A stretch of DNA of 32,257 bases from Candidatus Gastranaerophilales bacterium (GTDB lineage: Bacteria; Cyanobacteriota; Vampirovibrionia; Gastranaerophilales; Gastranaerophilaceae): positions 1 to 32,257 of the forward strand of contig CANQJQ010000007.1 in assembly GCA_947624265.1 (NCBI GenBank), read 5' to 3'. The notes below the pieces were generated by a model, which saw nothing but the letters and a program-made list of their open reading frames with translations, did not search any database and was not told the origin of the DNA. Shown piece after piece: positions 16,367 to 28,564 of this stretch (position 1 is its first letter; each line of letters begins with the position of its first letter). The translations under genes were made by a program, and so were the position numbers.

Positions 16367-16538
16367 TAATTAAAATATTTTAATTACGCCAGCTCGGAAC
16401 TTCGAATAATGAAAATCTGAATTTCAGTATAGGCTCGCGAACTCACTTCGTTCATACAACGCTCGCCTTTGACTTTTCTTCAATTCGATTTTCAATTATT
16501 CTTCGTTATAGCTTGCTTTAATTAAAATATTTTTATTA
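16367..16538. repeat. 172-bp imperfect inverted repeat (element A)
   Basis: Arms 16367-16417 and 16487-16538 pair over about 50 nt with a few mismatches: AAAATATTTTAATTA at the outer ends and CGAA(G)AATAAT...GAAAATC inside. The tip (about 16430-16470) is GC-richer and contains a weak GGCTCGCG / CGCTCGCC pairing. There is no ORF. It accounts for most of the gene-free stretch between the 34-aa ORF and the XRE genes. Confidence 0.75.
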
Positions 16539-27489: not shown

Positions 27490-27528
27490 ATTAATAACAT
27501 AAGAAATATTATAAATATATAATTTATA

Positions 27529-27718
27529 AATTATTAAAATAAACAAAAAAAATAAAGTTTGAAAACCATATACGGAGTTTCGTAAATTTTCCTGCAAGAC
27601 AACATCAAGCGAGGACATGTTTGACGACCGAAGGGAGGAGTTCCGCAGCTTTGGTCGCAGCTGGAAAATTAGAAACGCAGTATCAGGTTAGAAAACTTTA
27701 TTTTTTTGTTTAATAATT
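27529..27718. repeat. 190-bp imperfect inverted repeat (element B)
   Basis: The arms pair over about 55 nt: AATTATTAAA and AAAAATAAAGTTT outside, then AACC, ATAC, GTTTC and ATTTTCC blocks with small internal loops. The GC-rich tip carries a second stem, CGACCGAAG / CTTTGGTCG. Nested inside the 26-bp outer repeat. Confidence 0.78.
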
Positions 27719-27724
27719 AAGCTC

Positions 27725-27887
27725 AAATAATATAAAAATTGCGTCCTGTCGCTTCGTATAGATAACTTCTAAGCTCAGTTTAAGCCCCGTAACTCAGGCT
27801 GCGCCTTCAAACAGACGGGGCTTTGATGTTTCTTCGCTAAGAAGTTTAACTATACTACGCAATGGACTTTAATTTTTATATTATTTT
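27725..27887. repeat. 163-bp imperfect inverted repeat (element C)
   Basis: Arms AAATAATATAAAAATT ... TTGCGT ... CGTATAG ... AACTTCT.AAGC pair with the far end with bulges. The tip holds a perfect 9-bp stem AAGCCCCGT / ACGGGGCTT. Same overall build as elements A and B but different arm sequence. Confidence 0.78.
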
Positions 27888-27934
27888 CGCTTTTTGAAAA
27901 AATTTTAAAAAATATATTTATAATATTTCTTATG

Positions 27935-28564
27935 TTAAATACTTATAGTAACTCTTGAACCTTCTTTATGGTAGTCGCCGCCACCACAAATTGTTTCTAT
28001 TACCTTTAACAAAAATTCTCTGGGGGCATCCATTTGATTTATATAAAATTCTTGGTTGCCTAAATGTCGTATTTTAATAATCGCCTTTCCTGTCTTATCG
28101 GCAGGAACATACAATGAAGATACCTCTAAATCTAAAAGTTTTTGCTCAACTTCATCATTGAAACCGTTTACAAGTTCAGGGCAAGTTCCTTTTATTGCAA
28201 TAATTCTGCCTGTGAACAAAGGAGCATCTTTTTCTCTGTGTAATGCTTTTGGGGTATCTTTCATATTTGAAGCTATAGTTATTGTATGCCATAGAATATT
28301 TAATAAGGCTATATGCCTTTGTTTATCGTATTCATAATATATATTTTCCGTAGGAATACCGCGTACAGAAAAAGATTGCTTTAAATATTCAACCGTAAGA
28401 GCCATATTCTCTACCATTTTATCAAACATTATCAAAGTATTTGCATTTGATTGTTGGTATTCCAAAAACTGCTTGTACATATGACTGGACACAAGACTCA
28501 TTCTTTCTTGTATTACGGAGGACTTTCTCGCTGTTGTTTCTATATCTTCAAAATTACTGCTCAA
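27935..28564 (-). CDS. Unknown 209-aa protein, TTG start
   Basis: I do not recognise a family. It starts at TTG 28564 behind AAGGAA; no ATG is close. The N-terminal third is helical (ERMSLVSSHMYKQFLEYQQSNANTLIMFDKMVENMALTVEYLKQSF), and the middle and C-terminal parts look alpha/beta (GRIIAIKGTCPELVNGF; KAIIKIRHLGNQEFYINQMDAPREFLLKVIETICGGGDYHKEGSRVTI). No TM segment or signal peptide. Its stop codon is the first triplet of the outer inverted repeat. Transcribed divergently from the formyltransferase gene. Confidence 0.75.
   Translation of the reverse strand: MSSNFEDIETTARKSSVIQERMSLVSSHMYKQFLEYQQSNANTLIMFDKMVENMALTVEYLKQSFSVRGIPTENIYYEYDKQRHIALLNILWHTITIASNMKDTPKALHREKDAPLFTGRIIAIKGTCPELVNGFNDEVEQKLLDLEVSSLYVPADKTGKAIIKIRHLGNQEFYINQMDAPREFLLKVIETICGGGDYHKEGSRVTISI

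Follow-up and report, generated by a model that had tools for sequence, protein, structure and literature searches.

A probably mobile family of paired, folded repeats dispersed between the genes of Gastranaerophilales

The inverted-repeat block at positions 27495–27937 of the window, the whole 32,257-nucleotide stretch of DNA analyzed here, is one copy of a dispersed, non-coding and probably mobile repeat family of Gastranaerophilales that appears not to have been described before. It is probably a non-autonomous mobile element of a MITE- or REPIN-like kind, recognized through a folded strand and moved in trans. The repeating unit is a hairpin of ~125–190 nt, and in the block two such hairpins facing opposite strands within a shared terminal inverted repeat make up a composite of ~440 bp. 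The folded single strand would be recognized by an enzyme encoded elsewhere, which would move the element in trans, and homologous recombination between copies would shuffle the neighboring genes. Its members are repeated and intergenic, occupy a given site in some relatives and are missing from it in others, keep their fold on one strand, and recur at junctions of otherwise unlinked genes. Several observations count against this reading: the mobilizing enzyme was not found, no unit contains a gene, no clear target duplication was seen, and solo hairpins exist with quite different ends, so that some copies do without the terminal repeat.

The block is enclosed by two 26-bp arms that form a perfect inverted match. 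The left arm (27495–27520, + strand, TAACATAAGAAATATTATAAATATAT, including the outside TAA) contains the core CATAA-GAAATA-TTAT, and the right arm (27912–27937, − strand) is its reverse complement, the last three bases of which are the stop codon of a gene encoding 209 amino acids. The composite element proper, for which no strand is assigned, measures 437 bp (27498–27934, CATAAG ... CTTATG), with bounds set from 16 other units. Hairpin B lies on the + strand and spans 27529–27718 with its whole arms, as delimited by the long-arm repeat search and the fold. Its conserved core (27565–27689) scores 93.7 bits against R2, a covariance model that we built from the hairpin family alignment and whose E-values are rough; the + strand is the structured one, and the conserved tip, consisting of TGTTTGA, an apical stem and GAGTT, falls at 27618–27642 in alignment A1. 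Hairpin C lies on the − strand, with whole arms at 27720–27890 (approximate ends, from the minimum-energy fold) and a conserved core at 27743–27867 that scores 130.5 bits with R2 on the structured − strand. Its tip (27789–27816, alignment A1) reads TCTGTTTGA, apical stem and GAGTTAC on that strand. Elsewhere in the window, the intergenic interval 16390–16513 (− strand, R2, 66.3 bits) holds a third member of the family, a solo hairpin that has diverged.

Minimum-energy folding of either strand yields an outer stem carrying two hairpins. As RNA, the block folds at −144.6 kcal/mol against −79.2 ± 6.0 for dinucleotide shuffles (n = 100; z −10.8), and as DNA it folds with z −13.0; none of the 100 shuffles folds as well in either form. 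The perfect outer repeat around two large bulged hairpins, claimed in the original prediction, is thus present in the sequence, the repeat search and the folds. The right arm also ends in the TAA that terminates the 209-aa ORF (27935–28564), as had been stated. The idea that the left arm is an inverted copy of the 3′ end of this gene has to be dropped: only the TAA of the right arm is part of the gene, the gene ends without the arm at the loci of 29 relatives, and the terminal repeat recurs at unrelated sites. The 22-bp end is present on contigs C3, C17 and C53 of the same genome and, with one change, on C61, from which we conclude that the arm belongs to the element.

Searches of the genome and its relatives recovered dispersed copies. 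Within the genome, where copy counts rest on searches, the block retrieves long copies or halves on C3 (98%), C53 (85%) and C61 (98%), and solo hairpins on C1, C30 (twice), C54 and C89. Several of these copies lie at contig ends, as is usual for repeats in draft assemblies. B and C, which had been taken for independent hairpins, can be aligned to one another and to 33 further copies, and are related members of one hairpin family. Among genomes that are all drafts, R2 finds matches in 41 of 41 from the genus, with 1–52 copies each, and in 72 of 146 from the order, representing 15 of the 40 genera sampled (Candidatus Gastranaerophilales). In a phylum-wide sample, every genome among the matches listed belongs to the window's own family, and records matching the sequence pattern carry titles that refer to Candidatus Gastranaerophilales or to other uncultured bacteria of the gut. 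The block has no match in phage and plasmid collections; three viral contigs that fit the loose pattern fail to match the covariance model, and we judged these to be chance and rejected a phage or plasmid origin. Literature on the tip motif read as a peptide (FERSEF), or on repeats in this lineage, yielded nothing relevant.

The arrangement of two hairpins within the same ends is itself a recurrent unit. Flanked by the shared end CATAAnAnATRTTAT, it occurs at 17 loci in at least three genera and measures 409–602 bp, and the earlier suggestion of two elements that had landed inside a third is not supported. The conserved ends are 15 bp long (CATAA-N6-TTAT) and are near-palindromes around a constant 6-bp center, with the consensus TAYTTATAA-N6-TTATG-TA. 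Across the 17 units compared, we saw no clear target duplication. Adjacent hairpins are inverted in 33 of 39 pairs (24 −+ and 9 +−), and only 2 of 96 hairpin clusters overlap an ORF; these and the other arrangement counts given here come from loci selected through searches, which do not amount to random sampling.

The hairpin alignments indicate that selection acts on a folded single strand, and that the structured strand is the one bearing the TGTTTGA...GAGTT tip. In a 32-sequence alignment, two-sided changes occur in 31 of 34 pairs and 88.9% of cells pair, values reached by none of 500 shuffles; the 138 distinct sequences gathered by R2, once fitted to that model, have 91.4% of their cells paired and show covariation at each of the 34 pairs. 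Relatedness among copies inflates these covariation counts, and slid and shuffled controls still fall far below the observed values. In the GNA/GNA loop between helices, G·A and A·G are each kept in 34 of 35 sequences, and the tandem GA/GA internal loop is kept in 107 of 138. Where the model pairs positions, there are 198 G·A mismatches against 11 C·T, and 146 G·T against 64 A·C. Such an asymmetry would not be expected of a duplex, which argues that the folded single strand matters. Past the core, the outer arms match inside a copy (mean score 12.3) and differ between copies (5.9). Hairpin-templated correction could be part of the cause, although the persistence of fixed mismatches, which such correction would tend to erase, counts against it. 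The original prediction had also allowed for a large structured RNA or a recombination site; the part of this that stands is a folded single strand, clearly under selection as judged from the alignments.

Comparison of relatives reveals both filled and empty sites. The block lies at the same place upstream of aroA in G000, G012, G026 and G034, with its right end alone at a contig end in G010, and hairpins or end remnants occupy this position in G003, G020, G027 and G031. Next to the same conserved ATTTGCAAAT...TTATTGTCTAAT flank, an empty site is seen in G001, G011, G018, G021, G024, G059 and G060, among others; the block is therefore not a sequence conserved in all relatives. The same contrast of filled and empty sites is seen at rluB-panD and between gene X and rplU. 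The identities of gene X, rluB and an scpB-like gene are putative, being our readings of the sequence. Together with the dispersed, same-ended, non-coding copies, the filled and empty sites uphold in outline the earlier proposal of a MITE-like non-autonomous mobile element.

The far-side neighbor of the aroA copy differs in four of four species checked (G000 has the 209-aa gene there, G012 an aconitase-family gene, G026 a MazG gene and G034 gene X), which implies that copies are also rearrangement breakpoints. In G002, G033, G058 and G063, the 209-aa gene adjoins the aconitase-family gene with no block between them, and in G000 the aconitase-family gene ends at the block copy on C53. The simplest account of this draft gene order is insertion of a copy at each of the two places, followed later by recombination between the copies. 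Copies inside G012 are 98% identical, and the hairpins of the aroA copies are 89–93% identical between G000 and G012, pointing to recent copying or homogenization; aroA DNA is 78.4% identical between these two genomes. A solo hairpin between obgE and gatB in G000 and G023 (L009, L311) is 84% identical, against 77.5% for obgE DNA, and is by these identities an old orthologous copy. Such old orthologous copies, at aroA and obgE-gatB, also fit a retained function and count against the mobile reading.

The search for a mover found no mobilizing enzyme. The Y1 transposase family PF01797 is present in 11 of the 41 genus genomes and is absent from the copy-rich G000, G007, G023, G012, G026 and G014; a RAYT/Y1 mover was rejected, as the enzyme is absent from most carriers. 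Y1 is otherwise rare in the genus, and one strong example (140.9 bits) lies at L295 (G032:C1:92306–92662). No longer, gene-bearing unit was found in the genus search of 41 draft genomes or between distant hairpins, and the tendency of draft assemblies to break at repeats bears on this absence. As candidates for an autonomous element, the intervals between distant hairpins in G082, G148, G014, G007 and G023 were discarded; they hold ordinary-looking genes or no convincing ORF.

Four other explanations deserve weighing, and the confidence we place in them overlaps, since one element can both move and be transcribed. The element might be an ordinary DDE-type MITE, in which a TA-targeting transposase binds the terminal repeats as duplex, while the hairpins are merely carried along and their folding plays no part in movement. 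The sharp 15-bp ends fit such an element, as do the size, AT-rich arms and intergenic placement familiar from bacterial MITEs (PMC2229807), and TA lies directly outside 15 of 34 unit ends, against ~4 expected. However, just 5 of 17 units have TA at each of their two ends (independence of the sides would give 3.2), no same-ended autonomous relative was found in the 41 draft genomes of the genus, and the one-strand G·A loops, the covariation and the solo hairpins with other ends are left unexplained; we regard this account as fairly unlikely. An old set of vertically inherited palindromes, homogenized by gene conversion and relocated by chromosomal rearrangement only, would explain the shared site upstream of aroA in several species, the near-identity of copies in G012 and the presence of copies at rearranged junctions. 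That the family is not mobile is nevertheless very improbable in light of the empty sites with intact conserved flanks, the variation in copy number from 1 to 52 per genome, and the many near-identical short solo hairpins that G175 carries at unrelated sites, bounded by CAGTGAAATTT.

A structured RNA is a reading that we hold to be unlikely. It supposes that the hairpins are transcribed, for example as message 3′ ends or small RNAs, and that selection and recombination maintain and disperse them. The covariation with G·A loops is RNA-like, the hairpins exceed the adjacent aroA coding DNA in identity between G000 and G012, 31 of 46 solo copies have an upstream gene of the same direction, and flanking genes are divergent at 9 sites and convergent at 27, with 38 in the same direction. 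Promoter-like sites within the ends also face inward (9 against 3.0 expected), a weak signal given how AT-rich the ends are. Yet at same-direction sites the solo hairpins show no preferred orientation (12 along the genes, 9 opposed), every composite has one hairpin per strand, and the outer arms vary between copies and so provide no conserved flanking promoter. Rfam contains no family that matches the block at the gathering score or at E up to 5, and G·T pairs make up 3.5% of paired cells, which is low for an RNA. A terminator scan found no terminator-like site; transcription termination was rejected on this ground, and the suggestion that the arms are simple terminators is not supported. In our preferred reading, single-stranded DNA rather than RNA is the favored form of the functional strand. 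The fourth alternative is a single-strand integration like that of CTXphi attP(+), an analogy we consider doubtful. Here the inverted ends would be dif-like sites that anneal into an Xer-like tyrosine-recombinase site beneath the two forked hairpins with their conserved G·A loops, a host recombinase would insert the folded DNA, and copies would drive rearrangements. The site dif has an 11-6-11 layout with partial dyad symmetry (PMC5357621), and in CTXphi two oppositely oriented dif-like sites pair with each other below a forked hairpin (PMC3089051). The near-palindromic ends with their constant 6-bp center resemble this arrangement, and the window's right end, TTATGTTAAAT, equals the right half-site of V. 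cholerae dif1. An AT-rich palindrome may, however, look like dif by chance, and the outer half-site past TTATG is not conserved in other copies. Copies are spread over many intergenic sites instead of sharing a single site at the terminus, so that integration at a chromosomal dif, as in CTXphi, was not seen. A host dif was not found either; we rejected the best candidate, near the G073 terminus, as it lies inside an ORF by our reading of the sequence.

The preferred reading, a folded non-autonomous element moved in trans, places the family among several known systems. REPINs and BIMEs are doublets of REP sequences mobilized by RAYT, an IS200/IS605-type enzyme (PMC3116915). Like them, the family is intergenic and forms inverted doublets of imperfect hairpins, with singlets as well, and its structure is tied to one strand. 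It differs in its unit of 125–190 nt (the core alone takes ~125 nt) against ~20–60 for REP, in occurring at 1–52 copies and not hundreds, in having a terminal repeat of its own, and in the lack of a RAYT/Y1 gene in most carriers. It therefore resembles REPINs but fails to qualify as one, having no Y1 in most carriers and a much larger unit. With bacterial MITEs such as Correia/NEMIS, RUP and ERIC (PMC2229807), it shares a short, non-coding, AT-rich and intergenic character, terminal inverted repeats, enrichment of TA at the ends, and dispersed copies with empty sites, but the composite is larger and its one-strand structure covaries strongly. The CIR elements of Caulobacter and Brucella (PMC2229807) similarly have two long inverted repeats that give two arms joined by a linker, in another lineage and at another size. 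Integron attC, which has R′/R″ boxes and an integron integrase, is a further site of the folded-strand kind. The CTXphi attP(+)/dif module (PMC3089051, PMC5357621) has two inverted dyad-symmetric sites with 6-bp centers enclosing forked hairpins; in contrast, the copies described here are dispersed between genes, gene-free, and poorly conserved in the outer half-site.

Dispersed palindromic repeats are common in bacteria, and selection on their folded shape has rarely been demonstrated. For this uncultured gut lineage, the conserved G·A loops and the 34 pairs that covary define a structure precisely enough for it to be tested. The copies mark where Gastranaerophilales genomes gained DNA or rearranged, supplying a shared set of junctions, and the family is a fresh example in which to ask how small non-coding elements can move when they encode no enzyme.

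Several further features accompany the family. At L312 (G025:C3), three hairpins of the same orientation lie ~440 bp apart in a tandem array of the whole unit, and shorter tandem arrays occur at L313, L314, L319 and L320. A sister hairpin type (GCTTAACGAAGC ... core, different tip), which R2 reaches weakly, sits beside the B/C type at L028:1693–1801, L006 and L067. Another inverted repeat (GGTGTAAGATATTTACTTC ... GAAGCAAACATCTTACACC) lies directly left of several G175 hairpins (L177, L178, L179 and L182). Relatives also carry 6S RNA genes (RF00013) at L086:1329–1501, L330:2836–3008 and L036, and in L330 and L036, the latter judged by eye, a terminal repeat or its remnant follows directly downstream of the 6S RNA.
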